Assembly (NCBI GenBank): GCA_020849655.1
Contig: JADLFU010000066.1
Coordinates: 1-64,000 of the forward strand
Length of the DNA stretch: 64,000 nt
DNA from: Polyangiaceae bacterium
Lineage (GTDB): Bacteria; Myxococcota_A; Polyangia; Polyangiales; Polyangiaceae
Direction of reading: 5' to 3'
How positions within the stretch are numbered: position 1 is the stretch's first letter; each line of letters opens with the position of its first letter. Positions 3,001 to 49,005 of the stretch are shown in pieces. A program made the position numbers and the translations under genes. The notes below the pieces were generated by a model. The model did not search any database and had not been told where the DNA came from. It was given only the letters and a program-made list of their open reading frames with translations.

Positions 3001-6000
3001 GAGCGCCTCCCGGTGCGTGTCGATCGCGCGCTCCTGCTGCTCGAGCGGCCCCTCCTCGAGCTCCGCGATCGCGTGGAGGAGCTTCAGGCGGTCGGCGTCG
3101 TCGGTGCGGTGATCCAGCGTCGCGCGGTAGAGCGCCACGCGCGCGGCGTGGTCGCCCGCGCGGACGAGCAGCGCGTCGACCTCGGAGAACAGCTCGCGGG
3201 ACTCGGGCTCGAAGGCGAGCGCGCGGCGGAAGTACGCGAGCGCCTTGTCGAAGCGCTCGGCGGCGAGCGAGAGCTCGCCCGTCCGCCGCGCGAGCTTCGC
3301 GGTGTGCTCCTCGTCGGCGGCGATCTTCTCGAGCTCGGCCTCGTAGATCTCGGCGAGGCGCCCCGACGCGCCCGTCACCCGCGCCAGCCGCTCGCACTCG
3401 GCCCACGCGGACTCGTCCGACAGGTCCTCCGCGAGGAGCCGGGCGGCCACCTCGAGCGCGGCGCGCGCGTCGTCCCCCGACTCCTCGCGGAGCTGGATGA
3501 GGCGGCGGAGCAGGCCCTTGCGCTCCTCCGGATCCTGGCTGGCGGCGAGCCGCGCGTCGACGCAGCCCACGACCTTCTGCCACTCCGCGCGGCGGAGGTA
3601 GACGGGCTCGAGCAGCTCCGCGGCGCGTGCACGCACCTCGACCGCCCGCTCGGGCGACATCAGCCCCTCGAGCGTGGCGGCGGCGCCGTCGTGCGACGGA
3701 TCGATCTCGAGCGCCGCGACGAGCTCGTCGAACGCCCGCTCGACGTCGCCCTGCTGGTGCTCGGCGATGCCCGCGAGCTTCACGCGGAGGCTCGCCTTGT
3801 CGCCCACGCCCTCGGAGATCTGCCGCTCGAAGAGCGCGACGAGATCGTCCCAGCGCGCCTCCTTCGCGTAGAGCTCCTCGAGCGCGGCGAGGGCGGCCGG
3901 ATCGAGCCCGAGGTCGAGGATGGCCTCGTACACCGAGATCGCCTCCCGCGGCCCCTCCACCTCGCGCGTGAGCGTGGCCTGCCGGAAGTACAGGGCGCGG
4001 CGGGCGTCGTCGTCGGTCGCCGCGTCGACCCGCCTGCGGGTCGTCTCGAGCAGCGCGGGCAGATCGCCCATCTGCTCGTAGACGGCCGCGAGCGACGCGA
4101 GGAGCTGCGGATCGTCACCGCGCAGCGCGACGGCCTCCTTGAACCAGTCGCGCGCGTCCGCGAGGTTGCCCAGGTGGTCGCGCGAGATCTCGGCCAGCCG
4201 GACGCGGACGCGCACGGACAGCTCCTCGTCGAGCACCTCGGGGGCGATGGCCTTCAGCCCCTCGACCAGCTCGCCGTAGCGCGCCGTCGCCGCGGCGAGC
4301 TGCTCGGCGCGCTCGAGCCACGCGGCGAGGCTGGGCTCCCCCGCGGCCTCCTTCAGCCCGGCGAGCGCGAACGAGAACGCGCGGGCGCGGTCGGCGAGCG
4401 GCCCCGCCGCGGTGCGCTCGGCCTGGTCGAGCAGCGCGAGGCGCTCGCTCGGGGTGTCGGCGCACTCGATCTCGATCGACAGGACCGCGAGCAGCTTCTC
4501 GAAGGCGCCGTCCGCCTCGTACAGCGGGTGGAGCGTCTCGGCCACCTCGCGGCGCACGTCGGCGCTCTGCAGCAGCGCCTCCAGCGACTCGCGCGCGGCG
4601 GCGTGGGACGGCGCGAGCGTGAGGGCCTGGCGGTACGCGTCGAGCGCGCCGGAGAGATCCTCGAGGTGAGCGCGACGGACGTCGCCGAGCGCGACCAAGA
4701 GCTCGACCCGCGCGGCCTCGTCCTCGGCGACGTCGAGCTGCAGCGCGAGCGTCTCGGCGAGATCATGGTGCGCGCCGGACTTCGCGTACAGGCCGGCGAG
4801 CGCGACCAGCAGCGAGGGATCGGGGCCGAACTCATCGACGACGGTGCGGTATGCGAGCACCGCCTCGGTGGTGTCGCCGAGCTTCGCGCCGAGGGTCTCG
4901 GCCGTCTTCACGAGCAGCCGCCGACGCTCGACCGGATCCTGGCTGACCTGCTCGTGCGCGCGCAGCACCTGGACGAGCTCCTTCCAGGCCCCGGCCGCGT
5001 CGTGGAGCCGCTCGAGCGCCGCGAGCGCCTGCTCGTCCGACGGATCGTCCGCGAGCCGCGCCTGCCAGGCGGCGATGGCGCCGTCGCGGTCGGCCTGCAC
5101 GGTCTCTGCGAGCTCGCCGAGGCGGCCCCACAGCTCACGACGCTTGTCGGCGTCCCCTTCGAGCTTCACCTGGAGCTTCAGCGACGACGCGAGCTTCGAG
5201 GTGTCGCCCGACGCGAGGTGCAAGCGCTCGAGCGCTCGCGCGGCGGGGAGCGCGAGCTCGGCGTCGTCGGGATCGATCGCGACGACGCGGTCGAGCACCG
5301 CCTCCGCCTTCGCGCCGTCCGAGAGGAAATCTTCGTACAGACGCGCGACCTCGAGCAGGAGCTCGGCCTTGCGGGTCTTCAGGTCGGCGGCGTCGGCCGC
5401 GGCCGACAGCACCTCGGCGACGCGCGCGTACGCTCCCAGCCTGCGGCCGGTGTCGACGAGGCGAGCGCGAGACTCGTCGTCGTCCGGGGCCATCGGGAGC
5501 AGCGCCGCGAGCGCGTCGAAGCTCCCCGCGTCGTCGTGGAGGCGCTCGTCGCGCAGGGAGGCGATGCGCCGCAAGAGCTCGCGCTTGCGGTCCGAGTTCT
5601 CGGCGGACTCCAGCAGCACCGCGAGCACGCGGACGAGGTTGCGAGCGTCGTCGCGCACCTCGTAGCAAGCCTCGAGGGCCGCTGCCGCGCGCGGGCGGAG
5701 CGCGTCGACGCCGAGCACGCGCTCGACGAGGTCGCGCGCCTCGTCGACCATCGGATCGATCGAGAGCACCTCGGCGAGGTGCGCGAGCGCGCCCTCGGGC
5801 TGCTCGAGCTCGAGGTACAGGCGACCGAGGCGCAGCCGGAGGCCCTGGGCCTCGTCCTCGGTCGCGGCCTCGCGGCGGCGCTCGAGCAGGGCGGCGAGGT
5901 CGCGCGGCCGCTTCTCGGCCTGGTAGAGCGAGTCGAGCGAGCGCACCGCCTGCTCGTGCAGCGGATCGATCGCGAGGATGCGCTCGTAGTAGGTGATCGC

Positions 6001-9000
6001 CTTCGCGGGCTGCTGGGTGATCTCCTCGCAGACGAGGGCGACCTCGGCGAACAGCTCGACCCTCCGCGCGTCGTCGGGCGCGGCCGCGGCGACGCGCTCA
6101 TACAGCTCCTCGAGGGTCTGCCACTTCTCGGTGGAGGTCAGCACCTGCTTCATCCGGCTGAACGCGCGCTCGTCCTCCGGGCGCTTCTGCAGCACGAGGT
6201 CGAGGTACGGCAGCGCGGCCTCGGGGTTGCCGAGCCGCTCGTCGAACACGACGGCGGCGCGCTCGGCGAGCTCGAGCTCCGTCTGCTCGGGCAGCTCGGT
6301 CGCGAGCGCCTCCCGGAGCGCGTCGCCGAGGGCGGCCGCCGAGCCCGTCACCTGCGCGAGGTCCGTCGCACGATCCCAGAGGCCGAGCTCGGCGGGGAAC
6401 TCGCGCGCCCCGCGGAGGAGCACCTCGAGCGCGGGCCTCGGCGCCGCGAGCTTCTGCTCGTGCGCGTCGGCGAGCCGCGAGAAGAGCTCGAGGCGGCGAG
6501 CGGGATCGGTCGTGCCGTCCAGCAGCTTGGCGATGCTCTCGGCCTCCTTCTTCGCGTCGCCGGAGCGCGCGTACTCTCGCGACAGGAGCTCCGTCGCGGC
6601 GGCCCGGGTCGCGTCGTGCGTGGCGACGCGCTCGAGCAAGGCGATCGCCCGCGCGTCTCCCGGCAGCAGCTCGAGCGCGGCGGAGACGCACACGAGCGCC
6701 TCGGTCGGCGCGCCGAGCTTGTCGACGTACTGCTCCGCGAGATCGAGATCGCGGTGGGCGCGGTCGTCCCCGACGGCGAGCTCTCGACGGCGCTGCAGGA
6801 GCGCCACGGCCTTCGCGGAGTCGCCGGCGGCGAGGTGCAGGCGCGACAGCGCGGCGAGGGCGGAGGGGTGATCGGGGCGCGCCTCGACCACCTTCTCGTA
6901 CAGGTCGATGGCGCGCGCGGGCTCTCCGAACGCCTCGTCCTCGAGCTCGGCCCACTCGGCGTACACGGCAGCCCTGGCGTCGCCCTCGGCGCGCTCGACC
7001 TTCAGCCCGAAGAGCCAGCGCAGATCGTCGCGGCGATCGGCGCGGCGCAGGAGCCCGTCGAGCATCGCGACCGTCGCCGCGTCGGACGGATCCTCCTCGA
7101 CGAGCGCGCGGTACAGCGCGACGGCGTCGTCGATCTTGCCCTGCTGCGTGAGCTTGAGCTCCGCGAGGCGAGCCTCCACGGCGCGGCGCTCCTCGCGAGC
7201 CATGGTCGCCCTCGCCTCCTCGAGCCGCCGCGACAGCGCGGCGATCAAGGCGTCGTACGCCCCCGCCTCGCGCGCCGTCGCCTCGAAGAACTGCAGGCTC
7301 TCCGGGTCCTCGGGGGTGAGGCGGTACGCGCGCTCCGCGAGCGCCATCGCGCCCGCACGGTCGCCGAGGCGCTGCCCGGTGACCTGCGACATTCGTCGCA
7401 GCGTCGCGACCTGCGCGGCCGGGGTCGGCTCCGACGCGAGCACGATCTCGAGGATGGGCACGAGCCGCGCCCAGCGCTCCTCGCGCTCGTAGATCGGCAC
7501 GAGCGCCCGCGCCGCGCCCTCGTCATCAGGCTTGACGCCGAGCACGCGCTCGTACGCGCGGAAGGCGCGATCGGGCGCCTGCAGCTTCTCCTCGAACACG
7601 CGCGCGCTGCGGCGGGAGAGCGCGATCTTCTGCTCGACGTCGGTCGCGCGGTCGGCCGCGCTCGACAGCACCTCCGCGAGCGACTCCCAGTCGTTGCCGG
7701 GCGCGTACAGCTCCTCCAGCGCGTCGAGGTCGCCCGACGCGAGGTGGGCGTCGCGCAGCGTGCGCAGCGCCTTCGCGTGCCCGGGCGACAGCTCCAGCAC
7801 GCGCCGCCACGTCCTCGCCGCTCCCGCCGCGTCGCCGAGCCGCTCGGTGAAGAGCGCGCCGAGCTTCTGCAGCAGCGTGAGGCGCGCGGCGTCGTCGGGC
7901 GCGGCGTCGACGCGGCGCTCGAGCACCCACGCGGCGGTCGCCCAGTCCTTCTCGCGCTCGGCCTGCTTCTCGAGCGCGTCCATCGCGCCCGGCGCGCCCG
8001 GCTCCAGCGTCAGCGCCTCGCGGTAGAACCGCACGGCGTCCTCGCCGCGATCGAGGCGCTCGCCGGCGAGCTTCGCCATCTCGAGCAAGAGATCGACGCG
8101 GCCCTGCCCGGTGGCCGACGGCAGCTCCTTCTCGGCCAGCGCGAACAGCTGCGGCCACGCGCGGCGCTTGCCGTACAGCTCGCGGAGGCGCGCCTGCGCC
8201 TCGGCGTCGGTCGGCGCGACCTCGAGCAGCTTCTCGTACGAGTCGATCGCGTTCGCGACGTTGTTGAACTGGTCGAGCCAGCGCGCCGCGATCTCGCGGT
8301 ACAGCCGCGCCTTGTCGGCGGGATCGGTGAGCAGCTCGGCGAGCCGCTGCTGGTACGTGACGAGATCGCGCCACCGCGACAAGGCCTCGTAGACCCGCAC
8401 GAGATCGCGGATGGCGGCCTCGTCCTGGTCGTCGAGGCCGACGATCTGCGTGAGCACCGTGACGAGCGCGGTGTCGCTCTTGATGTGCGTGCGATAGATG
8501 GCCGCGATGTCGCGCAGCACGGCGAGGCGCGCCGCCTTGTCGTCGGCCGGGGCGCGCTCGAGCTCCTGGCGCAGCAGCTCGACGAGCGCGTTCCACGCCT
8601 CCGTCTGCGTGTAGAGGCGGCGCAGCGAGTCGCGCGCCTCACGGTTGTGCGGATCCTGGCGGAGGATGGCCTTGTACTGCTCGATGGCGCGGCCCGCGTT
8701 CGCGTCGTCCTCCGCGAGCCGCGCGATCTCGCCCGCGAGCGCCGCGCGCTGCGGGCCGTCGGGCAGGGCGCGCTGCGCGTCGGACAGGATGTTCGACAGG
8801 CGCGACTTCTGGTCGCGCGCGCCGCACAGCTCGCGGAAGAAAGAGAGCATCCCCTCGTGGGTCGGATCGAGGCGCCGCACGCGCTCGAACCACGGCTCGG
8901 CGCTGTCGGGGCGCTGGCGCATGCGCCAGTGGGTCATCGCGATCTGCACGAGCGTGCCGAGCTCCTGCCCCGGCTTGACGGCGCCGCTCTGGAGCTGATC

Positions 9001-9858
9001 CTCGTAGAGCGCGACCAGGTGGTCCCAGTCCTCCTTCTCGGAGAAGTGTCGCGCGAGGAAGCTCATCGCCTCGTGGTGGCCGGGCGACAGGTCCGAGACG
9101 CGCTCGTACGCCGTCGCGGCGCGGCCCGCGTCCTTCATGCGCAGCGCGAACATGCGGCCGAGCCGCACGAGCGCGGCGATCCGCTCGTCGCGATCGCGGG
9201 CGTCGTCGGCGTAGCGAGAGAGCACCGCCGCGGCCGCCTCCCAGTCCTCCTGGGTGCGGTGGATGCGCTCGAGCAGCCCCGCCGCGCGGCGGTTCGTCGG
9301 ATCGTGGCCGAGCGACTGCTCGAGCATCGAGCACATCTGCTCGAGGGCCTTCTTCTTCCGGCCGCCGTAGCGCCACGCGACCTCCGCCGCGGAGAGCAGC
9401 AGCGAGCTCTTGAACGCGGGCTCGGTCGCCTCCTCGACCTCCTTCAGGTAGCGCTTCACGAGCTCCTTCGACTTCTCCCGCTTCGCGTCGATGCGGCCGA
9501 GGGCCTCCGCCGCCGCGGGGTCGTCGGGGCGGAGCTCGAGCAGCCGGCGGTACGCGGCGACCGCCGCCTTGTCGTCGAGCGTCTCCTCGTCCTCCACCCG
9601 GGCGAGCTCACCCTGCAGCCGCGCCTCGTCGTCGGTGCCTCTCGCGAGACCGACCGCGAGCTCGAGCAGCCGCGCGACGGCGTCCCACTCGCGCCTGTGC
9701 TCGTGACCCCGTCGGGCCGACGAGAGCAGCGCCCCGAGCTCCGCCGTCGACAGCTCGCTCTGGGACGGCACCGCCTCCGACAGATCCGTCCAGGCCCCCG
9801 CCTGCTCGGGGTCGTCCTGCAACTGGCCAAGTGCCGTCCTGATCTTCTGAGCGCTCAT
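1..9858 (-). CDS. Giant tetratricopeptide-repeat protein (3' end outside window)
   Basis: An unbroken minus-strand frame runs from ATG at 9858 to the left edge, at least 3286 codons. The N-terminus (MSAQKIRTALGQLQDDPEQA) has no signal peptide or membrane segment, so a cytoplasmic protein is expected. The whole frame is helical repeats of roughly 34-40 residues rich in Ala, Leu, Glu and Arg, with TPR-like elements such as AYRRLLELRPDDPAAAEALG near the start and ATKLYEEIVEESAEDARAVD at the left edge. No catalytic domain is visible in the part present. Known: such arrays are protein-binding scaffolds. Inference: a very large scaffold in the class of giant myxobacterial TPR proteins. The opposite strand is also open for about 2880 codons but encodes only Arg/Leu/Glu-rich low complexity. 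Confidence 0.9.
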   Translation of the reverse strand, partial: MSAQKIRTALGQLQDDPEQAGAWTDLSEAVPSQSELSTAELGALLSSARRGHEHRREWDAVARLLELAVGLARGTDDEARLQGELARVEDEETLDDKAAVAAYRRLLELRPDDPAAAEALGRIDAKREKSKELVKRYLKEVEEATEPAFKSSLLLSAAEVAWRYGGRKKKALEQMCSMLEQSLGHDPTNRRAAGLLERIHRTQEDWEAAAAVLSRYADDARDRDERIAALVRLGRMFALRMKDAGRAATAYERVSDLSPGHHEAMSFLARHFSEKEDWDHLVALYEDQLQSGAVKPGQELGTLVQIAMTHWRMRQRPDSAEPWFERVRRLDPTHEGMLSFFRELCGARDQKSRLSNILSDAQRALPDGPQRAALAGEIARLAEDDANAGRAIEQYKAILRQDPHNREARDSLRRLYTQTEAWNALVELLRQELERAPADDKAARLAVLRDIAAIYRTHIKSDTALVTVLTQIVGLDDQDEAAIRDLVRVYEALSRWRDLVTYQQRLAELLTDPADKARLYREIAARWLDQFNNVANAIDSYEKLLEVAPTDAEAQARLRELYGKRRAWPQLFALAEKELPSATGQGRVDLLLEMAKLAGERLDRGEDAVRFYREALTLEPGAPGAMDALEKQAEREKDWATAAWVLERRVDAAPDDAARLTLLQKLGALFTERLGDAAGAARTWRRVLELSPGHAKALRTLRDAHLASGDLDALEELYAPGNDWESLAEVLSSAADRATDVEQKIALSRRSARVFEEKLQAPDRAFRAYERVLGVKPDDEGAARALVPIYEREERWARLVPILEIVLASEPTPAAQVATLRRMSQVTGQRLGDRAGAMALAERAYRLTPEDPESLQFFEATAREAGAYDALIAALSRRLEEARATMAREERRAVEARLAELKLTQQGKIDDAVALYRALVEEDPSDAATVAMLDGLLRRADRRDDLRWLFGLKVERAEGDARAAVYAEWAELEDEAFGEPARAIDLYEKVVEARPDHPSALAALSRLHLAAGDSAKAVALLQRRRELAVGDDRAHRDLDLAEQYVDKLGAPTEALVCVSAALELLPGDARAIALLERVATHDATRAAATELLSREYARSGDAKKEAESIAKLLDGTTDPARRLELFSRLADAHEQKLAAPRPALEVLLRGAREFPAELGLWDRATDLAQVTGSAAALGDALREALATELPEQTELELAERAAVVFDERLGNPEAALPYLDLVLQKRPEDERAFSRMKQVLTSTEKWQTLEELYERVAAAAPDDARRVELFAEVALVCEEITQQPAKAITYYERILAIDPLHEQAVRSLDSLYQAEKRPRDLAALLERRREAATEDEAQGLRLRLGRLYLELEQPEGALAHLAEVLSIDPMVDEARDLVERVLGVDALRPRAAAALEACYEVRDDARNLVRVLAVLLESAENSDRKRELLRRIASLRDERLHDDAGSFDALAALLPMAPDDDESRARLVDTGRRLGAYARVAEVLSAAADAADLKTRKAELLLEVARLYEDFLSDGAKAEAVLDRVVAIDPDDAELALPAARALERLHLASGDTSKLASSLKLQVKLEGDADKRRELWGRLGELAETVQADRDGAIAAWQARLADDPSDEQALAALERLHDAAGAWKELVQVLRAHEQVSQDPVERRRLLVKTAETLGAKLGDTTEAVLAYRTVVDEFGPDPSLLVALAGLYAKSGAHHDLAETLALQLDVAEDEAARVELLVALGDVRRAHLEDLSGALDAYRQALTLAPSHAAARESLEALLQSADVRREVAETLHPLYEADGAFEKLLAVLSIEIECADTPSERLALLDQAERTAAGPLADRARAFSFALAGLKEAAGEPSLAAWLERAEQLAAATARYGELVEGLKAIAPEVLDEELSVRVRVRLAEISRDHLGNLADARDWFKEAVALRGDDPQLLASLAAVYEQMGDLPALLETTRRRVDAATDDDARRALYFRQATLTREVEGPREAISVYEAILDLGLDPAALAALEELYAKEARWDDLVALFERQISEGVGDKASLRVKLAGIAEHQQGDVERAFDELVAALEIDPSHDGAAATLEGLMSPERAVEVRARAAELLEPVYLRRAEWQKVVGCVDARLAASQDPEERKGLLRRLIQLREESGDDARAALEVAARLLAEDLSDESAWAECERLARVTGASGRLAEIYEAELEKIAADEEHTAKLARRTGELSLAAERFDKALAYFRRALAFEPESRELFSEVDALLVRAGDHAARVALYRATLDHRTDDADRLKLLHAIAELEEGPLEQQERAIDTHREALDVDERDVTSLDALTRLYRATKRYQDLAAHYERRVETSGDGDEVAALRLALAKLYADELGDTSAAIDQLQTIVEALPWHRDAIAELERLSRDPEHKARVVEILLPLYERSDDWRDLVRINERRLELADGAGEKVGILREIAKLQETRGADPKAAFEALERCLVLDPETDARADLERLASSLSSWDALAGTYEQAIEKAEDHVKRELLLALARLHDQRRDDPRAALNAFTRLAALDETDPEPLEQMDLLAMMLSDWSAIVRVLEKKIALATEDDARAALYRRIGESKRDMLDDADGAIAAYERAAELEPDSAYTIDCLIELVEGKDDPARLVELCRRRVELAGADDADLKYELSRRIAGALEAKLGRRRDAIDALREALAARPADQEVLAELDRVLSAEELWPDLLDNLRLQAASAEAPAERVRLRRAMGDLYREKLDEPTEALECYRQVLEDEPSDPGAVAACFGIADGRDEHRAAAVDVLEPVLRLSGRFPELVRALELKLRSQGDAQSRAQTLRTLAITHELNLAAPAAALDALLRALVEAPDDDTVHAEAERLSDELGDFTKYATALEERAAAVFDAEITRGLRTRLGRVAETRLSDDARAIAAFRAALDDGGDAPELLLSLDRLYGRAGDDKGLAEILERRIGLDDDADARADLHHRLAELQISRFADPAAGVASLRAALESRQAHVGAREALERLLDRESLFAEVSDILEQTYRALGDHGRLASLLGRRIDRAPVPADRVKMRLDLARVLEEDAKDLAAAQGAIEAAMMDDPTDPDVLAEVERVAPIHGGWASAAAALSRAVAKKELPRDTARELLMRVGDWQRNKVGDRAAAEQAYEEALARDPESLDIVRLLEELRRAPGRDRALVDTLRLRAKLESERDTRRSLLREARALAADPLADAALAEAILRQLLEDADADQGALEELGALRAAAGDHADVVRLLLKRAELTTEATERARLKHDAAATYREQLHDKDRATKLYEEIVEESAEDARAVD

Positions 9859-9919
9859 TCATCAACCTCGTCCCCGCGGAGGGGACCGAAGAACTGCGTG
9901 CCAACCGGCGAAACGCGAG

Positions 9920-9939
9920 GCCCGTGCGCGCGCACGGGC
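9920..9939. promoter_or_regulatory. Perfect 20-bp palindrome in the TPR/lipoprotein intergenic region
   Basis: GCCCGTGCGCGCGCACGGGC is its own reverse complement over all 20 bases. It lies between the divergent genes starting at 9858 and 10055, inside the inferred 5' leader of the TPR gene. It could be an operator or a leader hairpin; alternating GC in such a genome can also arise by chance. Confidence 0.4.
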
Positions 9940-9979
9940 GGGGCTGCCGCCGGCGCCCGCGGGCGACGACGGGGCACGC

Positions 9980-10008
9980 ATCGTAGGTAACCCAACCCCG
10001 GCCCACAA
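9980..10008 (-). promoter_or_regulatory. Candidate sigma-70-type promoter of the giant TPR gene
   Basis: Read on the minus strand, TTGTGG (10008-10003) and TACGAT (9985-9980) are separated by 17 bases. The expected transcript start is about 110 bases upstream of the ATG at 9858. The -35 element is poor and this is pattern matching only. Confidence 0.35.
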
Positions 10009-10054
10009 GCGCTTCCCCAACTCTTCTTCGAGGGGTATCGTCCGCGCCGAACGG

Positions 10055-10495
10055 ATGCGGCTCGCGCGCCCCCTCTCGCTGCTGATTTTCGCGCTGCTCG
10101 GCGCGTGCGTGCCGTCGTCGCAGGGGTCGACTCCGAAGACCCCGGACGGCAAGAGTTGCGCGACGCGGCTGGTGGGCGAGTGGCGCTTCGTCGGCTTCGT
10201 CCCCGACCCTCCGATCCCGGAGGACGTCAGGCAGTCGATCGAGCGACTTCACGGCGGGCTGCGCGTCGGGTTCGACGGGCAGCGGACGTTCACGACGGGG
10301 CCCGGCCTCTCGCAGGCGTCCCCGTACCAGGTGCAGAACGACGACGGGCTCTCGTGCAGGCTGCTGTCACCGGACGAGCAGGGCGCGGTGTCGGAGACGT
10401 GGGTGAGGTTCCTCGACGCGAACCACCTCGAGCTGCTCGATCGCCGCCCCGCGAGCGCCGCGCCCGGCACGGCGAGGCTCGAGCGCACGCGCTGA
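10055..10495 (+). CDS. Small hypothetical lipoprotein
   Basis: A 146-residue protein. It has a short basic N-terminus, a hydrophobic core and a lipobox LLGAC with Cys18 as the predicted lipidated residue. Mature part: about 125 residues with VGEWRFVGF near the start, DGQRTFTTG in the middle and a C-terminal strand-like LELLDRRP. This pattern resembles the first strand of small calycin/lipocalin-like bacterial lipoproteins, but I cannot assign a family. It is transcribed away from the giant TPR gene across a 196-base gap. Its last 206 bases overlap the tail of the convergent coiled-coil gene; the composition of this frame looks like genuine protein, that of the overlapping tail does not. Function unknown. 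Confidence 0.75.
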   Translation: MRLARPLSLLIFALLGACVPSSQGSTPKTPDGKSCATRLVGEWRFVGFVPDPPIPEDVRQSIERLHGGLRVGFDGQRTFTTGPGLSQASPYQVQNDDGLSCRLLSPDEQGAVSETWVRFLDANHLELLDRRPASAAPGTARLERTR

Positions 10496-12290
10496 TCTCG
10501 AGGCGCCGGCGCCCGCGTAACGGCTGAAAATACCGGCCGACCTGCTCGCGGTACTCCTCGGGCACCTCGCCGCGATCGATGCCGCCGGTCTCCGCCTTGC
10601 CGACCTCGCCGATGGCGCCCGTGCCGCGCGTGTTCGCGGTGTCGCCCTCTCGCCCGCCGGTGCGCCCGATGGTGATGCCGGCGGTGGGGGCCTTCCCGTT
10701 CACCTTCGACTTCGCCCGCGCGCGGAGCTCGTCGGCGCTCACGTCGGCGGACTTGCCCGTGTGATCGCCCGTGCCCTTGTCCTCGGAGTGCCCAGGCGCG
10801 CCGGGCGTGCCGGACGACGCGTCGCCGGACCCCTTGGGAGCGGGGCCGCCCGGAGCGCCGGGGCTCGGGGGGCCGGGCATCGGCATCGGCGCCCCGCCGA
10901 GCTGCTTCTGCGCGTCGCCGAGCCCGCGCTGCGCGTCGTCGAGGCCCTTCTGTCGCTCCGACTCGCCGTCCTTGTCGTCCGCGGTGGCCATGCGCCGCAG
11001 CTCCTCCTCGAGCGCCTTCTGCCCCTCGGGCGTCGAGAGCTCGCGGGCCATGTCCTCGAGGCGCGATCGCGACGCGGGATCGAGCTGCTCTCCGCGCTCC
11101 TGCAGCTGCTTCTTCAGCTTCTCCGCGAGCCGCTTGCGCTCCTCGGGCGTGAGCTTCTTCAAGGCGTCGCCCATGCCCTTCGCGATCTTCTTCGCGTCGG
11201 CGTCGCTCCCGGGCGGCTGGAGCAGATCGTCGAGGTCCTTCTTCTGCTCCGGCGTCATCGCGCCCTCGAGCGCCTTCTGCAGCTCGCGGAGCTCCTCCGC
11301 GCGCGCGGCCCGCTGCTCGAGGAGCTCGCGCTGCCGGTCGAGCGCCTTGCCGACGTCGGCGGCGCCGCCCTCCTTCGCGGCCTCGGCGGCCTCCTTCAGG
11401 ATCTGCTTCGCGCGGTCGCGATCGGTCTTCTCGCGCGAGTTCGCGAGCTTCTGCATCTCCTCGTCGAACTTCACCAGATCGCGGTCGGCGAGCGCCTTCG
11501 CGGCGTCCTTCGTCAGGGGATCCTGCGCGAGGCGCCCGAGCGCCGCCTCGAGCCCCGCGCGCTTCTCGCCGTCGCCGAGGCTGAGGCGCTCCGCGTCGAC
11601 GGCGTCCTGCAGCTTGCCGAGCTCGGCGAGCGCCTCTCGTCGCTCCGTGCCCTCGCGGAGCTTCTCGCGCAGCGCCGCGGCGTCCTTCGCGATCTTGTCG
11701 AGGCGCTTCTTCTGCTCCTCGTCGCGCGCGTGGAGCTTCGCGAGCTCCGCGACCTTCTCGAGCCCCTTGACCTCCGCGAGCATCACCGTGTCGGCGCCTG
11801 GCGCCTGCGCCTTCGCCTCGCGCGGCGGCAGCGGCATCCACGCGACGTAGCCGATGGCGAGCGCCGCGAGCGGGGCGAGCGCGTGCCACGGCGACAGCAC
11901 GCGCACGCGCAGACGGCCCGGATCGGCGGCCGCGAGCGCGCGCTCGGCCTCCCGCGCGACGTGCTCGCGCACCTCCCCCGCTCCGACGCCGCCCCGATCG
12001 ATCGCGGTCGTCACGATCTCCGCGGTGCCGAGGCGCTGATCGAGGAAGAGCGCGACCTCCTCGTCGTCGAGGCGCCGCCGCCGCGCCGCGACGAGGCCCG
12101 CGCCCGCGCCGAGCGCGCCCGCGCCGAGCGCCGCCCAGCGATCGGGCCCCCGCCCCGCGCGCCACAGCGCGAGCGCCGCGACGACGCCGACGGCCAGCCC
12201 CACGGCCGCGCCCGTGAGCGCCGTGCGCGTCGCCAGCCGCCGCCGCAACCTCGACGCGTGCCTCGAGAACAACGCCGACAGCTCGCTCAC
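10290..12290 (-). CDS. Membrane-anchored coiled-coil protein (DUF4175-like)
   Basis: A 666-residue frame from GTG at 12290, with GGGAGG eight bases upstream as Shine-Dalgarno. Residues about 22-45, 50-70 and 155-175 are hydrophobic and probably cross the inner membrane. They are followed by about 300 residues of Lys/Glu/Ala-rich coiled coil and a Gly/Pro/Ser-rich region. The layout resembles DUF4175-type proteins that accompany MoxR/vWA clusters. The family-like ending VPEEYREQVGRYFQP is followed by about 80 residues of Arg/Ala/Ser-rich sequence that is antisense to the lipoprotein at 10055-10495, so the natural stop may have been lost. It lies 45 bases after nuoI on the same strand and may be read with the nuo operon. 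The role is unknown. Confidence 0.75.
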   Translation of the reverse strand: MSELSALFSRHASRLRRRLATRTALTGAAVGLAVGVVAALALWRAGRGPDRWAALGAGALGAGAGLVAARRRRLDDEEVALFLDQRLGTAEIVTTAIDRGGVGAGEVREHVAREAERALAAADPGRLRVRVLSPWHALAPLAALAIGYVAWMPLPPREAKAQAPGADTVMLAEVKGLEKVAELAKLHARDEEQKKRLDKIAKDAAALREKLREGTERREALAELGKLQDAVDAERLSLGDGEKRAGLEAALGRLAQDPLTKDAAKALADRDLVKFDEEMQKLANSREKTDRDRAKQILKEAAEAAKEGGAADVGKALDRQRELLEQRAARAEELRELQKALEGAMTPEQKKDLDDLLQPPGSDADAKKIAKGMGDALKKLTPEERKRLAEKLKKQLQERGEQLDPASRSRLEDMARELSTPEGQKALEEELRRMATADDKDGESERQKGLDDAQRGLGDAQKQLGGAPMPMPGPPSPGAPGGPAPKGSGDASSGTPGAPGHSEDKGTGDHTGKSADVSADELRARAKSKVNGKAPTAGITIGRTGGREGDTANTRGTGAIGEVGKAETGGIDRGEVPEEYREQVGRYFQPLRGRRRLEISACARASPCRARRSRGGDRAARGGSRRGTSPTSPTPRPARPVTAACTRARRRSAPGTGTPARGRAPS

Positions 12291-42690: not shown

Positions 42691-44064
42691 ATGAGCCTCG
42701 GCCTCCGCCTCCTCCGCGCCACGTGGCTCCTGTTCCGCATCTTCGCGAGCTACATGATCCAGCTCGCGCTCGACAAGGTGTTCCAGCGTGACTACGTGCG
42801 GCCGCCGTGGCTCGCGGCGCGCAAGGAGCGCGTCGACCGCAAGAACGCGAAGCGCCTGCTCGCCGGGATGCTCCGCCTGCGCGGCGTGTTCATCAAGCTC
42901 GGCCAGGTGCTCTCGATCATGGGAGGGTTCCTCCCGCGCGCGTACACCGAGGAGCTCGAGCAGCTCCAGGACAACGTGCCCCCGCACCCGTTCCGCGAGG
43001 TCGAGGGCTCCATCCTCCGCGATCTCGGCAAGCACCCCGACGAGCTCTTCAAGGACTTCGCGCGGGAGCCGCTCGCCGCCGCGTCGCTCGGGCAGGTGCA
43101 CGTCGCGCACCTGAAGACCGGCGAGAAGGTCGCCGTGAAGGTGCTGTACGCCGGCATCCGCGACGTCATCCGCGTCGACATGCGCGTGCTCGGGTGGGGG
43201 ATGCGCGTGTACATGTGGTTCTTCCCGTTTCGCAACATCGAGCGCGTGCACGCGTCGCTCGTCGATCTGCTGAAGCGCGAGACCGACTACGTGCACGAGG
43301 CCGACTGCATGCGACGGATGGCGAAGAACTTCGAGGGCGACGCGGGGCTCGACTTCCCGAAGCCCATCGACGCGCTGACGAGCCGCGACGTGCTGACGAT
43401 GACGTTCATGGAGGGCGTCAAGATCACGAACTTCACGGAGTTCGAGCGGCTCGGCATCGACCGCGATCTGGTCGCGACGCGCTTCATCCAGGCGTTCTAC
43501 AAGCAGCTGTTCTTCGACCGGTTCTTCCACGCCGATCCGCACCCGGGGAACTTCCTCGTGCGCAAGGACGGCGACGAGACGACGCTCATCATCCTCGATT
43601 TCGGCGCCATCAGCACCGTCGAGCCCCACCTCGTCGACGGCGCGTTCGAGATCCTGACGGCGGTGCTCACGCAGGACCAGGCGAAGGTGCTCTCCGGGTT
43701 CCACAAGATGGGCTTCGTCGCCGAGGACGGCAACAAGGAGCTGCTCGAGAAGACGGTCGTCTCGTACTTTCAGAAGCTCCTGAAGGTGAAGGATCGCTCG
43801 CCGGCCGCGCTGATGAAGGCGAACCGCAAGCAGCTCGAGAAGCTCGCGGACCCGGAGGTCGAGCGCAAGGAGCTGCGCGAGCTGATGAAGTCGTTCGACT
43901 ACCCGGAGGGGTGGTTCTACGTCGAGCGCGCGAGCGTGCTCGCGTTCTGGCTGTGCGGGCAGATCGCGCCCGAGCTCGACGCCGCGACCGTGGGCATCCC
44001 GTACGTGATGCCGATGATGGTGCAGCGGCAGATGGAGCAGCAGCTCGCGCAGGCGAGCGCGTGA
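42691..44064 (+). CDS. ABC1/UbiB-family atypical kinase
   Basis: A 457-residue protein of the UbiB/COQ8 family, ATPases linked to isoprenoid-quinone biosynthesis. It shows the KxGQ motif (FIKLGQVLSIMGGFLP), the Ala-rich replacement of the P-loop (LAAASLGQVHVAHL), the ion-pair Lys in VAVKVL, and the catalytic FFHADPHPGNFLV and LDFGAIS motifs. The N-terminus has a hydrophobic stretch (LLFRIFASYMIQLAL) that could bind membrane. No ubi or men genes are adjacent. It is coupled to the next gene by GTGA. Confidence 0.92.
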   Translation: MSLGLRLLRATWLLFRIFASYMIQLALDKVFQRDYVRPPWLAARKERVDRKNAKRLLAGMLRLRGVFIKLGQVLSIMGGFLPRAYTEELEQLQDNVPPHPFREVEGSILRDLGKHPDELFKDFAREPLAAASLGQVHVAHLKTGEKVAVKVLYAGIRDVIRVDMRVLGWGMRVYMWFFPFRNIERVHASLVDLLKRETDYVHEADCMRRMAKNFEGDAGLDFPKPIDALTSRDVLTMTFMEGVKITNFTEFERLGIDRDLVATRFIQAFYKQLFFDRFFHADPHPGNFLVRKDGDETTLIILDFGAISTVEPHLVDGAFEILTAVLTQDQAKVLSGFHKMGFVAEDGNKELLEKTVVSYFQKLLKVKDRSPAALMKANRKQLEKLADPEVERKELRELMKSFDYPEGWFYVERASVLAFWLCGQIAPELDAATVGIPYVMPMMVQRQMEQQLAQASA

Positions 44065-46307
44065 TCCCTCGCGCGGCGCGCGTCGTCGGGATCGACGGCG
44101 CGCTGGTCGCGGCGGCGTCGCTCGCGACGGGATGGCTCCCGCTCTCGGCCGGGCCCGGGTACGAGTCCGCGCTCGCGACGGGCCTGTTCGCGCCGGCCGT
44201 CGCGGCGGCGTCGGTCGCCGTGCGGACGAGCCACCCGCTCCTCTCGCACGGCGCGCGCGTGGCGACAGGGATCGGGCGGGGCGCGGGCCTCGCGCTCGTC
44301 GCCTACGCGGCGACGCTCTTGCACGGCGTGCGCGCGGGGTTCTGCGATCTGACGGGTGGCACCCTGCTGTTCGCGCTCGGGCCGATGTGCGGCGTCGTGA
44401 TGGGCGGCGCGTGGGGCGCCTTGGCCGGCGAGCTCGCGTCGAGGGCGAAGACCCCGCGCGCGCGGCTCGTGGCGGCGCTGTCGCTCGGCCTCGCGGGGCC
44501 GCTCGCGTCGGCGCTCGTGAGCCTCGCGCGGTTCTACACGTCGCCGATGGTGTTCGCGTTCGATCCGTTCGCGGGGTTCTTCAGCGGGATGCTGTACGAC
44601 ACGGTCGTCGACGGCGCGCCGAGGCTCGTGACGTACCGCGCGGGCTCGCTCGGCACGCTGGTCGCGCTGTCGCTCACGGCCGCGCTGCGCGATCACCCCG
44701 CGTGGCGGAGAGGTCCAGCCGCCGTGGGCGCTCTGCTCGGCGCGGCGGCGTCGGTCGGCGTGACGCTCTCTGCGACCTCGCTCGGACACGCACAGACGCC
44801 GGCGAGCATCGCGCGGGCGCTCGGCGGTCGGCGCGAGGGCGCGCGCTGCACCGTGATCCACGCGACGACGGCGAGGCCCGACGACGTCGCGCTCTTCACG
44901 CGGGACTGCGACGAGCGCGTGGTCGAGGTCTCGGCGACGCTCGGCGTGCCCCCGCCCCACGTGACGGCGTACCTCTTCCCCGACGCGGAGACGAAGCGGC
45001 GGCTGATGGGCGCGGCCGAGGTGTACGTCGCGAAGCCGTGGCGCCGCGAGGTCTACGTGCAGCCCGCCGGGTACCCGCACCCCGTCCTCGGGCACGAGAT
45101 CGCGCACGTCGTCGCGGGCTCGTTCGCCAGGGGGCCGTTCCGGGTCGCCGGGAGCTTTCTAGGTATGTTGCCCAACCCGGGGCTCATCGAGGGGCTCGCG
45201 GTGGCGGCGGCGCCCGAAGAGGGGGACGATCTCTCGGCCGAGGCGTGGAGCCGCGCGATGCTCGATCTCGGCCTGTTGCCGCCGATGGAGGCGCTGTTCT
45301 CGCTGGGGTTCCTCGGTCACGACGCGGGCAAGGCCTACACGGCCGCGGGCGCCTTCGTCGGGTACGTCGCGCGGGCGCACGGCTGGAGCGCGGTGCGGCG
45401 GTGGTACGGCGGCGAGCCGCTGCCTCGCGTGACAGGCAAGAGCCTCGCCGCGCTCGACGCCGAGTTTCGGGCGCAGCTGTCCCGCACCCCGATGGACGAC
45501 CGGACGCGCGAGATCGCGCGCGCGCGCTTCGACAGGCCCGCCGTGTTCGCGCGGGTGTGCCCGCACGAGCTCGACCGTGACAAGCGCGACGCCGCCACGC
45601 GGCTCGCCGCGGGTGACGTCGACGACGCCACCAGGAGGCTCGATCGCGTGCTCGCCACCACGCCGCGCGACGCCGCGGCGAGGCTCACGCGCGCGACGTG
45701 CAGCCTGCGGCGGGGCGATCCCGGCGACGCCGCGGCGCGGCTGCGCGCGCTCGCCGACGACGGGCGGGCGAGCCGCATGGCGCGCGACCACGCGGAGGAG
45801 CGGCTCGGCGATCTCGCGCTCTCCCTCGGCGACGTCGACGCGGCCGCGGCGAGGTACCGCGCCGTGCTCGCGCGCACGGTCGACGACGATCGCAGGCGGA
45901 CGCTCGACGTGAAGCTGCGCGCGACCGAGGACGCGGCGGCGAGGCCGGCCGTCGTCGCGCTCCTGATCGGCGATCCGAGGCGGGGAGTCGACGCGGCCGA
46001 CGCCGGGTTCGCGCTCGGCGCGTGGATGGCGAAGGGCGATCCGGACGGGCTCGCTCACTACCTCCACGCCCGGCTGGCGATGAACAAGGGCGACCACCGG
46101 ACGGCGATCGCGCGGCTCGACGAGGCGCTGGCCGTCGGCCCCGCGCCCGCGTCGGTGCACCGCGAGGCGCTGAGGTTGTCAGCTGTCGCCCGGTGCGCGA
46201 CGGGTGACAGGGAGGGCGCGGCGGCGTTCGCGGCGCGGTACAGGGCGGAGTGGCCAGGTGAGCGCGCGCTCCGGCTCGACGCGCAGGTGGCGCGCTGCGG
46301 GCGGTGA
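44061..46307 (+). CDS. Membrane metallopeptidase with C-terminal TPR-like domain
   Basis: A 748-residue protein from GTG at 44061, coupled to the UbiB gene by GTGA. The first 250 residues hold about six to seven hydrophobic segments. A zinc-peptidase domain follows: HEIAH at residues 345-349 and a downstream Glu377 in PGLIEGLAVA give the HExxH...E gluzincin pattern. The remaining 300 residues are Ala/Arg/Asp-rich helical hairpins (TPR-like, such as LARLAMNKGDHRTAIARLDE-type units). I know no named member with this order. Its last 60 bases are duplicated beyond the graspetide cassette (see the 71-bp repeats), which marks this 3' end as an insertion point. Confidence 0.85.
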   Translation: MIPRAARVVGIDGALVAAASLATGWLPLSAGPGYESALATGLFAPAVAAASVAVRTSHPLLSHGARVATGIGRGAGLALVAYAATLLHGVRAGFCDLTGGTLLFALGPMCGVVMGGAWGALAGELASRAKTPRARLVAALSLGLAGPLASALVSLARFYTSPMVFAFDPFAGFFSGMLYDTVVDGAPRLVTYRAGSLGTLVALSLTAALRDHPAWRRGPAAVGALLGAAASVGVTLSATSLGHAQTPASIARALGGRREGARCTVIHATTARPDDVALFTRDCDERVVEVSATLGVPPPHVTAYLFPDAETKRRLMGAAEVYVAKPWRREVYVQPAGYPHPVLGHEIAHVVAGSFARGPFRVAGSFLGMLPNPGLIEGLAVAAAPEEGDDLSAEAWSRAMLDLGLLPPMEALFSLGFLGHDAGKAYTAAGAFVGYVARAHGWSAVRRWYGGEPLPRVTGKSLAALDAEFRAQLSRTPMDDRTREIARARFDRPAVFARVCPHELDRDKRDAATRLAAGDVDDATRRLDRVLATTPRDAAARLTRATCSLRRGDPGDAAARLRALADDGRASRMARDHAEERLGDLALSLGDVDAAAARYRAVLARTVDDDRRRTLDVKLRATEDAAARPAVVALLIGDPRRGVDAADAGFALGAWMAKGDPDGLAHYLHARLAMNKGDHRTAIARLDEALAVGPAPASVHREALRLSAVARCATGDREGAAAFAARYRAEWPGERALRLDAQVARCGR

Positions 46308-46315
46308 GGTCACCC
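46245..46315. repeat. 71-bp direct repeat, copy 1 (inside metallopeptidase 3' end)
   Basis: Matches 47610-47680 at 68 of 71 bases in the same orientation. It covers the last 21 codons and stop of the metallopeptidase gene and the last codons of the convergent ATP-grasp gene. Mismatches are near 46256, 46268 and 46309. Confidence 0.9.
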
Positions 46316-47218
46316 GCGCGCAGCAGGCGCCTCACGCGCCGCGACGCGCTCGATGGCACGCCACACCGCGCTAAAGATGCCCCTGTCGCCGTCGTCGAGC
46401 CAGCCCCACTCGCCGTTGGTGGTCACCTCGAGGAAGACCAGCCTGCCCTCCGGCGTCCGCAGGAAGTCGAGCCGCCCGAAGGAGAGGCCCGCGTCGCGCA
46501 TGAATCGCCGGATCGCCGCTGTCTCCTCCGGACGCAAGTCAACGGCCCGCCAGGGGAGCGGGCGCGCTTCGGAGATGAACTTGCGCCAGTCCTCGCCCTC
46601 GAACGTCTCGCGGTCGAGCGCCGCGGCGAACGTCTCACCGTCCACGAACACGACCGTGACGTCTTCGCCGTGATGCTCCTCTTGCAAGTACCAGGGCCAG
46701 GCTGGGTCGAGCTGGGCTGGGTCGACCCTGCGAGTGAACAGGAACCTCCCGCCGAGAAACCCCGCGGCGACCAGCGACTTGGCCACGACGGGCCACGACG
46801 GCGTGGGCAGCGTTCCCCACGCGACCCCTCCGTCGGGGACGGCGAAGTGACGCCTCGCCACGCGCAGTTGGGAGAGCTTGTCGACCCGCGCTTCGTCCGC
46901 CGGATCGACGAGCACGAGGCGCCTGGCGTCGCGCGCCCAGTTGACGAGGTGCTCGACCACACCCCGCACCTGGGATCGAGCCCAGCGCTCCGCGACGTCG
47001 CCCTCCTCCGCCCCGAACCAGTGGGGCTTGCGGTAGTAGACCGCGGCGCAGGTGTCGGTGGAGATGGCGCGACCGGTTGGGTCGGTGAGCGCGAAGCCGT
47101 CGTCCCTGACGGAGACTCGGTAGTCTCGCCAGAGATCGACGTTGAACCGAACCACCGGGACGGCCCCGCCGAGCGCGAGCAACTGCGTGGCGGTGCCGTC
47201 CTCGGAGTTCGTGAGCAA
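46310..47218 (-). CDS. ATP-grasp peptide ligase, graspetide-type (MvdC/D-like)
   Basis: About 302 residues. The N-terminal third resembles the pre-ATP-grasp domain of microviridin-type ligases, with TNSEDGTATQ, PVVRFNVDLW and AAVYYRKPHWFGAEE. ATP-grasp elements: VVAKSLVAAG (ATP-binding Lys), WPWYLQEEHHGEDVTVVFVD, and the metal/catalytic segment GRLDFLRTPEGRLVFLEVTT continuing NGEWGW, the ExxxNG[EQ]W pattern of graspetide ligases. Such enzymes phosphorylate Asp/Glu side chains of a precursor and form omega-esters or amides with Thr/Ser/Lys. No ATG or GTG fits the start; TTG at 47218 is used here, but upstream CTG codons would restore the first strand (AHLLLLTNSED). It lies directly downstream of the repeated peptide gene, in the same frame, after its stop. 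Confidence 0.85.
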   Translation of the reverse strand: MLTNSEDGTATQLLALGGAVPVVRFNVDLWRDYRVSVRDDGFALTDPTGRAISTDTCAAVYYRKPHWFGAEEGDVAERWARSQVRGVVEHLVNWARDARRLVLVDPADEARVDKLSQLRVARRHFAVPDGGVAWGTLPTPSWPVVAKSLVAAGFLGGRFLFTRRVDPAQLDPAWPWYLQEEHHGEDVTVVFVDGETFAAALDRETFEGEDWRKFISEARPLPWRAVDLRPEETAAIRRFMRDAGLSFGRLDFLRTPEGRLVFLEVTTNGEWGWLDDGDRGIFSAVWRAIERVAAREAPAARG

Positions 47219-47254
47219 GAGGAGGTGGGCCAGGGGTCCCCCCAGGGTCCGCCG

Positions 47255-47482
47255 TCAGTCGCGATTGGAGTCGGTGGGCTGCCCCCTGCCGTCGAAGGTC
47301 TGGAGCGTCTGCCCGCCCACGGTCGTCGAGTCCATGGGCTGCCCCCTGCCGTTGAACGTCTGCTTCTGCGGGCCTCCGACGGGCGCCACCCTGCCCTGGG
47401 TGGCCCAGTCGTAGGCGCCCGCGTCGCGGTGCTCGATCGTCGGCATGCTCGCGAGGTCGTCCGGTGTGAAGAGTCGGTCCAT
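47255..47482 (-). CDS. Candidate graspetide precursor peptide
   Basis: A 75-residue peptide from ATG at 47482, with GGAGA (47491-47487) as Shine-Dalgarno. Leader-like part (about residues 1-40) begins MDRLFTPDDLASMPTIEHRD. The C-terminal part holds two near copies of a 12-residue motif: QTFNGRGQPMDS (41-52) and QTFDGRGQPTDS (61-72), period 20, separated by TTVGGQTL. Each has a Thr and a downstream Asp eight residues later, suitable for side-chain ester closure. There is no Cys. The gene is 36 bases upstream of the ATP-grasp gene, the usual placement of a RiPP substrate and its ligase. The core does not match the microviridin (TxKxPSD) or plesiocin (TTxxxxEE) cores I know. Confidence 0.72.
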   Translation of the reverse strand: MDRLFTPDDLASMPTIEHRDAGAYDWATQGRVAPVGGPQKQTFNGRGQPMDSTTVGGQTLQTFDGRGQPTDSNRD

Positions 47483-47498
47483 GTCGTCTCCGTTCTGT

Positions 47499-47513
47499 CG
47501 TGCACGATGCACG
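47499..47513. promoter_or_regulatory. Inverted repeat before the precursor gene
   Basis: CGTGCA-CGA-TGCACG has 6-bp perfect arms with a 3-base centre, 17-31 bases upstream of the precursor ATG. A (GA)7 tract lies at 47534-47548. The repeat could be an operator or 5'-UTR hairpin. Confidence 0.35.
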
Positions 47514-47609
47514 CGTCGGCACGCTCGCACATCGAGAGAGAGAGAGAGCAAGCGCCGATCCAGCCCGGCCCGTGCGGCGGGGAGCGTCAGGCCCTCGACG
47601 GCGAGTATG

Positions 47610-47680
47610 GCGGAGTGGCCGGGTGAGCGCGCCCTCCGGCTCGACGCGCAGGTGGCGCGCTGCGGGCGGTGAGATCACCC
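47610..47680. repeat. 71-bp direct repeat, copy 2 (remnant of metallopeptidase 3' end)
   Basis: Same orientation as 46245-46315, three mismatches. It encodes again the ending AEWPGERALRLDAQVARCGR plus stop, but without the upstream gene. It ends 11 bases before the stop codon of the Ser/Thr kinase gene (47692). Confidence 0.9.
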
Positions 47681-47691
47681 ACTCGTCACGG

Positions 47692-49005
47692 TCAGAACCC
47701 CACCTTGTCACGCCCCCCCCCCCCGACGGGCGCCACCTTCGTGGGGACCGCGGGCTTCGCCGGGTGAGGCACCTTGGCGGTCGGGTTCGCTGGTGGAGCG
47801 GCGCTCGCGCTTGGCGCCGCAGGCGCCTGGGGCGCGGCCGAGCTCTCGCCGGCGGGCGCAGGCGTGGGGGGAGGGTCGGCGGGCGTGGGCGCTGTCGACT
47901 TCGGCTCGGGAGCGGCGACCGACGCGGCGGGCGCCGACTCACCTGCGGGCCCGCTACGCATAACAACAAATCCAACTCCCGACGCGAGGAGCACACCCGC
48001 GACGAGCGCCCCGCCCACGACCAGGCCCTTGCCCTTCGCCGGCGGGGGCGTCTGCACCGTCCGCGCCGCGTCTCCGAGGGTGACCGGTCGCTGCGCGGGC
48101 GGGAGCCCGTCGGACACGCCGGGCATCGACACCATCGACTCGCGCGCCGAGCCTGCCGCCGGGGCCTCGCCCAGCGCCGCTGCCAACCCATCCACCAGCT
48201 CGCGCACGCTGCCATAGCGCTCGCTGGGCTCGCGCGCGCTCGCCCGCTGCCAGAACACCTCGATCGCCTCGGGCAGCTCCGGCGCGCGCTCGCGCACCGT
48301 CGGGATGGGGTACGACACGATGCGCAGGATGAGATCACCGAGCGAGTCGCTGTCGAACGGGCGGAACCCGGTCAGGCACTCATACACAATCACGCCGAGC
48401 GACCAGACGTCGGAGCGGTGATCGATCGCCTTCACGCCCTTCGCCTGCTCGGGCGACATGTAATACGGCGTGCCCATCACCGATCCGGTGCGCGTCTGCA
48501 CCCCCGCGGCGAGCGGATCGATGAACTTGGCGATGCCGAAATCGAGGATCTTCACGAGGTCGCGATCCTCGTCGCGCACGAGGAAGAGGTTGTCGGGCTT
48601 CAGGTCGCGGTGCACGATCCCGAGCCCGTGCGCCTTGGTGAGCGCGCGCGCCGCCTGGCTCACGAGCTCGAGCACCACGCGCGGCGGGAGCTTCGTCATC
48701 CGCTCGAGGCGCTTCGAGAGCTCCTCGCCCTCGAGCAGCTCCATCGCGATGTAGGGCATGTCGTCCCAGGTGCCCGTGTCGAGCACTTGCACCACGTTCG
48801 GGCTCCGCAGCGCGGCGGCCGCGCGCGCCTCCGTCGCGAACCGGGCGCGGGCGTCCTCGGTGACGGCGGCGCTCTCGATGAACTTGACCGCGCACGGGAT
48901 GCCGAGCTGCAGGTGGTGCGCGAGCCAGACCGAGCCCATCCCGCCGCGGCCGAGCTCGCGGACGAGGCGAAAGCGATCCGCGACGACGAGGTCTGCCTGC
49001 GGCAT
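47692..49005 (-). CDS. Ser/Thr protein kinase, membrane-anchored (module 1)
   Basis: A 437-residue PknB-type kinase. Gly-rich loop ELGRGGMGSVW, Lys41 in AVKF, HRDLKPDN with Asp134, DFGIAKF with Asp155 and GTPYYMSPEQAKG, so it is predicted active. After the kinase domain there is one membrane helix (GLVVGGALVAGVLLASGVGF) and a Pro/Ala/Ser-rich periplasmic tail without a recognised sensor domain. The ATG at 49005 follows the lipoprotein stop by two bases (TAGCCATG). It is last in the module operon TPR/PEGA, lipoprotein, kinase. The 3' end carries a run of 12 G on the coding strand. Confidence 0.94.
   Translation of the reverse strand: MPQADLVVADRFRLVRELGRGGMGSVWLAHHLQLGIPCAVKFIESAAVTEDARARFATEARAAAALRSPNVVQVLDTGTWDDMPYIAMELLEGEELSKRLERMTKLPPRVVLELVSQAARALTKAHGLGIVHRDLKPDNLFLVRDEDRDLVKILDFGIAKFIDPLAAGVQTRTGSVMGTPYYMSPEQAKGVKAIDHRSDVWSLGVIVYECLTGFRPFDSDSLGDLILRIVSYPIPTVRERAPELPEAIEVFWQRASAREPSERYGSVRELVDGLAAALGEAPAAGSARESMVSMPGVSDGLPPAQRPVTLGDAARTVQTPPPAKGKGLVVGGALVAGVLLASGVGFVVMRSGPAGESAPAASVAAPEPKSTAPTPADPPPTPAPAGESSAAPQAPAAPSASAAPPANPTAKVPHPAKPAVPTKVAPVGGGGRDKVGF
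47713..47724. repeat. Homopolymer C12 (G12 in the kinase coding strand)
   Basis: Twelve C bases near the 3' end of the kinase gene encode a short poly-Gly (PVGGGGRDKVGF). A length change would only alter the last few residues. Such runs slip in vivo and are also a common sequencing-error site. Confidence 0.85.

Follow-up and report, generated by a model that had tools for sequence, protein, structure and literature searches.

A minimal graspetide gene cluster of ~1.3 kb lies between two copies of the 3' end of a neighbouring metallopeptidase gene. We consider a recent insertion accompanied by duplication of this gene end to be likely. The explanation that we prefer, and hold with about even confidence, is integrase-independent capture of the cluster by recombinational repair. 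The locus is not a new kind of system, and its interest lies in the detail. Within the window (the whole 64-kb stretch of DNA that was analysed), the locus contains the following features.

44061-46307, plus strand: metallopeptidase-like membrane protein with a HEIAH motif and a TPR C-terminus (open reading frame with TPR Pfam matches)
46244-46315, plus strand: repeat copy 1, comprising the metallopeptidase 3' end, its stop codon (46305-46307) and 8 bp
46310-47218, minus strand: ATP-grasp graspetide ligase, 302 residues, TTG start as listed (TIGR and PDB matches)
47255-47482, minus strand: graspetide precursor, 75 residues, with an AYDWATQ leader and two core-like repeats, QTFNGRGQPMDS and QTFDGRGQPTDS
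47483-47608, minus strand: 5' region of the cassette, from the precursor start to copy 2, the presumed promoter site
47609-47680, plus strand: repeat copy 2, a stand-alone second copy of the metallopeptidase 3' end
47692-49005, minus strand: Ser/Thr protein kinase, the convergent neighbour (Pkinase, E 1.8e-45)

The two copies form a direct repeat on one strand (46245-46315 and 47610-47680) with 68 of 71 bases identical, or 69 of 72 when the matching flanking base (46244/47609) is counted. The mismatches are located at 46256, 46268 and 46309, leaving exact runs of 12, 11, 40 and 6 bases. With a minimum length of 50 bp and a minimum identity of 85%, the pair (BLAST E = 3e-26) is the sole direct repeat in the window. 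Copy 1 is attached to the metallopeptidase gene and also contains the end of the opposite-strand ATP-grasp gene, whose last two codons are GGG TGA (46310-46315), so that the ligase stop codon lies inside the repeat. Copy 2 stands alone, with the kinase stop codon (47692-47694) 11 bp beyond it. This arrangement is as the initial annotation had described it. The same annotation had named a dispersed repeat as a finding that would speak against its proposal, and this was rejected, as the whole 6.56-Mb draft genome has only the two copies and the next match is a 33-bp GC-rich partial one. The edges of the repeat are sharp: gapped extension upstream behaves like that of random window pairs (0.37 of the pairs reach or exceed the observed value), and downstream it detects no further homology between the copies. 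A longer, decayed homology past the repeat was rejected, because gapped extension is no better than for random pairs. A terminator or structured RNA was also rejected, with fold energies similar to those of shuffled sequences (z -0.6 to 0.6) and no Rfam family. No tRNA is found in the 64-kb window.

The draft assembly is fragmented (307 contigs, 4.17% contamination), and another of its contigs ends in a 57-bp exact repeat, which could suggest that the bracket is an assembly artefact. We regard this as extremely unlikely, as the copies differ at three sites and agree exactly over no more than 40 bp in a row, and as the contig runs without a break through both junctions, over at least 64 kb.

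The 1294 bp between the repeat copies contain two minus-strand genes, for the 75-residue precursor and the 302-residue ligase. The ligase matches TIGR04187 (E 2.5e-23) and TIGR04185 (E 1.4e-23), both below the curated cut-offs, as well as the PDB entries 5ig8 (ATP-grasp ligase, E 4e-13) and 7m4s (AMdnB, E 7e-13). Its fold is evident from the sequence. The closest full-length ligase homologue found is from a Xanthobacteraceae genome, with 33% identity. The precursor reading frame is 36 bp upstream of the ligase, contains a 60-bp internal repeat and has a core with Thr/Ser plus Asp/Glu. Searches gave no family match for it, and its leader has the form AYDxxTQ, common to the precursor and a small reading frame upstream of the closest ligase homologue (leader comparison, E 4e-4). 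A graspetide-type ligase and an adjacent precursor with a conserved leader and core are thus both present, and the assignment of a two-gene graspetide cassette, made earlier from the sequence alone, is supported. In the 5' region of the cassette we found no sigma-70 consensus. A GA microsatellite is present there around 47535-47550, on the 5' side of the precursor gene.

With a leader and repeated-core precursor and one ATP-grasp ligase, the cassette resembles TIGR04187 / MvdC-like graspetide clusters (PMC8939145, PMC13097080), but the ligase has ExT in place of the conserved ExN. This Glu-x-Thr is located near the C-terminus, where 12 of 12 aligned homologues have ExN. An Asn lies two residues past the ExT, and one homologue (L050) also has an Asn at this place. 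ExN contains the metal-binding Asn of ATP-grasp enzymes and is a mark of an active ligase, not of family membership. Judging from the alignment, the usual metal-binding Asn of this ligase may have been lost or displaced. Because ExT stands against ExN in the 12 homologues, ligase activity should not be assumed.

Under the preferred explanation, the minimal cluster (precursor plus ligase, ~1.3 kb) would have been captured recently in this lineage, in the 19-bp spacer between the convergent metallopeptidase and kinase genes or, alternatively, at a rearrangement junction. In any cassette-free junction between the metallopeptidase and kinase genes, the two stop codons would be 19 bp apart. Candidate repair routes are staggered-break fill-in, template switching, and uptake, by a single crossover, of a fragment that included the gene tail, any of which may have left the 71-72-bp copy of the metallopeptidase 3' end at the far side of the insert. 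As the junction is 8 bp behind the stop codon, the host metallopeptidase would never have been interrupted. Recombination between the direct repeats may occasionally allow precise loss of the cassette. What speaks against capture is that no empty-site genome was found among those compared, so that insertion, rather than loss elsewhere, is inferred, as are a single event and the repair route.

Comparisons with other genomes bear on the age and source of the cassette. No ligase match is present in the sole same-genus genome compared (G001, 84% complete), and a close homologue of the cassette occurs in none of 108 family genomes. The homologues found are all distant, with an identity of at most about 40%. 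Searches of plasmids and phages gave no ligase homologue above 32% identity (plasmids and one phage record have distant homologues), and viral contigs gave none at all. A plasmid, phage or viral-contig origin was therefore rejected. The repeat copies have diverged by 4.2% (Poisson 95% CI 0.9-12.2%). The metallopeptidase genes of the window's genome and the same-genus genome differ by 21.6% overall and by 40% at fourfold sites. The smaller divergence between the copies suggests that the duplication is younger than the split of the two species, barring gene conversion. It is the absence of the cassette from the same-genus genome, together with a repeat that is unique and young, that makes a recent insertion likely. 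The codon adaptation of the ligase gene (0.575) is the lowest of eight genes compared, with six flanking genes at 0.63-0.86, which gives weak backing to a foreign origin of the ligase. Its GC content is slightly under that of most neighbours.

The kinase side of the locus is arranged differently in the same-genus genome. The kinase orthologue there is 78% identical and has a different 3' neighbour, a convergent esterase gene 16 bp behind the kinase stop codon. The esterase orthologue of the window's genome (66%) is on another contig, among other neighbours. The metallopeptidase orthologue of the same-genus genome is cut by the contig end at the position that corresponds to 45751 in the window. 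In this genome, the check for an empty site that the initial annotation had proposed, with a single copy between the metallopeptidase and kinase genes, shows the kinase followed by the esterase and a truncated metallopeptidase gene. Of 16 further family members, none has this kinase or the UbiB gene beside the metallopeptidase, and the gene at 51 kb has no clear orthologue outside the genus. We also note a 12-C run at 47713-47724, in the C-terminal part of the kinase gene, a possible slippage site or sequencing weakness.

Judging from the neighbours of the kinase and metallopeptidase genes in the same-genus genome, synteny with that genome breaks at the window junction. Since the kinase is not beside the metallopeptidase there, we may be looking at a junction formed by rearrangement and not at a simple insertion. 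In such a case, a larger rearrangement in this lineage would have joined the metallopeptidase and kinase blocks, repair would have captured the cassette and duplicated the gene tail, and a cassette-free junction between the two genes would never have existed. We consider this possible, though on the unlikely side. The displaced esterase and the failure to find this metallopeptidase-kinase pair in any of the 16 other relatives favour it, as does the location of breakpoint and insertion in one short spacer. However, the same-genus genome may itself be the rearranged one, and the 3' side of its metallopeptidase gene is off the contig. Our confidences in this account and in the preferred capture overlap, because the former is partly a special case of the latter.

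We also considered whether an integrative element had used the metallopeptidase gene as its target. A site-specific integrase would have joined an attP site and the metallopeptidase 3' end, copy 1 and copy 2 would be attL and attR, and the recombination genes would have been lost later, leaving a scar or a cis-mobilizable remnant. Direct repeats at both boundaries, one of them with the end of an intact gene, and the lack of a recombinase correspond to the anatomy of decayed elements and of 3'-end integration (PMC5704250), and the repeat is unique in the genome. In these respects the locus is like a CIME or decayed IME at the 3' end of a housekeeping gene, which has edge repeats, an intact target end and no integrase (PMC5704250). 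The differences are that att repeats are generally 8-60 bp (PMC5704250), whereas the repeat here is 71-72 bp with scattered mismatches and without a recognisable core; that the insert has only 1.3 kb and two genes; and that the target is poorly conserved. Metallopeptidase homologues are present in all 39 genomes searched in the family and order, with or without a cassette, and the protein was for this reason rejected as a cluster member acting as leader peptidase. Its C-terminal tail sequence is poorly conserved among relatives and would be a poor integrase target. A duplicated tail at the metallopeptidase gene was seen in none of 16 relatives, a small sample, in which a conserved target of related integrase-bearing elements was likewise not seen. 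No element using the metallopeptidase 3' site, including any related one with an integrase, was found, and plasmids, phages and viral contigs gave only the results stated above. Insertion after 46315 is also behind the stop codon, so that nothing in the metallopeptidase gene needed rebuilding. Taken together, a decayed integrative element seems unlikely.

These results separate two parts of the initial annotation, which had proposed that the cassette entered at the 3' end of the metallopeptidase gene and duplicated it in the manner of an integrative element rebuilding its target. Entry that duplicated the gene end is likely. The integrative style is unsupported, with no recombinase, a poorly conserved target, no tail duplications in the 16 relatives and comparable brackets elsewhere in the genome. 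The annotation was right that no recombinase is encoded; we found none in or next to the cassette, nor a related element.

The comparable brackets come from about 1.58 Mb of sampled sequence of the window's genome, in which two or three other brackets of 60-100 bp surround unrelated inserts. At C110:6763-8433, a 66-bp repeat (91%) surrounds 1.5 kb, and this locus is not conserved in the same-genus genome. At C133:9690-10560, a 98-bp direct repeat (99%) surrounds 0.7 kb with a truncated methyltransferase gene. At C9:1325-2208 (L147), a 62-bp orphan gene tail is located directly before an intact paralogue with the same tail. The remaining nearby matches are mostly repeats within a gene or in tandem, longer duplications with several kb between the copies, or a repeat at a contig end. 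Brackets around unrelated inserts indicate that the pattern is not specific to the graspetide cassette, and as they are found in the same genome, ordinary insertion and repair is a better explanation of the bracket than a mobile element that brings an integration system of its own. Some further features of these loci were observed. The C9 gene is Uma2-like by eye. The C133 locus (9586-10560, L115), upstream of prfB, also has a 332-bp segment that is duplicated, at 88%, from a stretch at a distance of 9 kb. C110:6986-7298 (L169) is a dispersed element of ~313 bp, with three near full-length copies (78-81%) and partial ones in the same-genus genome.

The orphan tail beside its intact paralogue at the C9 locus also provides a precedent for a residue of tandem duplication, in which the metallopeptidase end, the whole gene, or the tail plus cassette would have been doubled and the second copy mostly deleted. 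The cassette would have arrived in or before the duplication event, and an orphan tail would have been left beside the kinase. Both coding differences between the copies are synonymous (two of two), as if both copies had once been genes. However, several steps are needed, including a deletion ending close to the kinase stop codon, and no extra metallopeptidase sequence above chance is found upstream of copy 2. We think this history improbable. With the genomes compared, it remains a live rival alongside the rearrangement junction and the decayed integrative element, and the three are inseparable.

Capture by repair has parallels among small variable segments of bacterial genomes. In three bacterial species, 10-18% of such segments have flanking direct repeats, 66-94% of which are under 30 bp, and illegitimate or RecA-assisted recombination has been proposed to explain them (PMC2884548). 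Like these segments, the cassette is short, bracketed by direct repeats at both edges, without a recombinase, and absent from the relatives searched. In contrast to most of them, which have repeats under 30 bp (PMC2884548), its repeat is 71-72 bp and copies a gene end. This length counts against the capture reading. If the insertion is true, the locus would represent a clean, recent case in which a natural-product cluster, complete with two genes, was captured with neither an integrase nor a transposase. Its boundaries would be known almost to the base, the repeat could permit loss with the neighbouring gene undamaged, and it would become possible to test how minimal peptide clusters spread through large, rearranging genomes of this kind.

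A wider proposal is that small peptide-biosynthesis cassettes in this bacterial group have no integrase of their own and are passively mobile, by way of the duplicated ends of adjacent genes. Brackets of duplicated gene edges would then mark a general capture route, and cassettes would move and be lost precisely. We consider such generality very unlikely. The graspetide loci of relatives have no flanking repeats of a comparable kind. In one genome (G124, L096), a 196-bp direct repeat with 82% identity (5379-5573 and 5917-6109) is located just upstream of a graspetide ligase gene.
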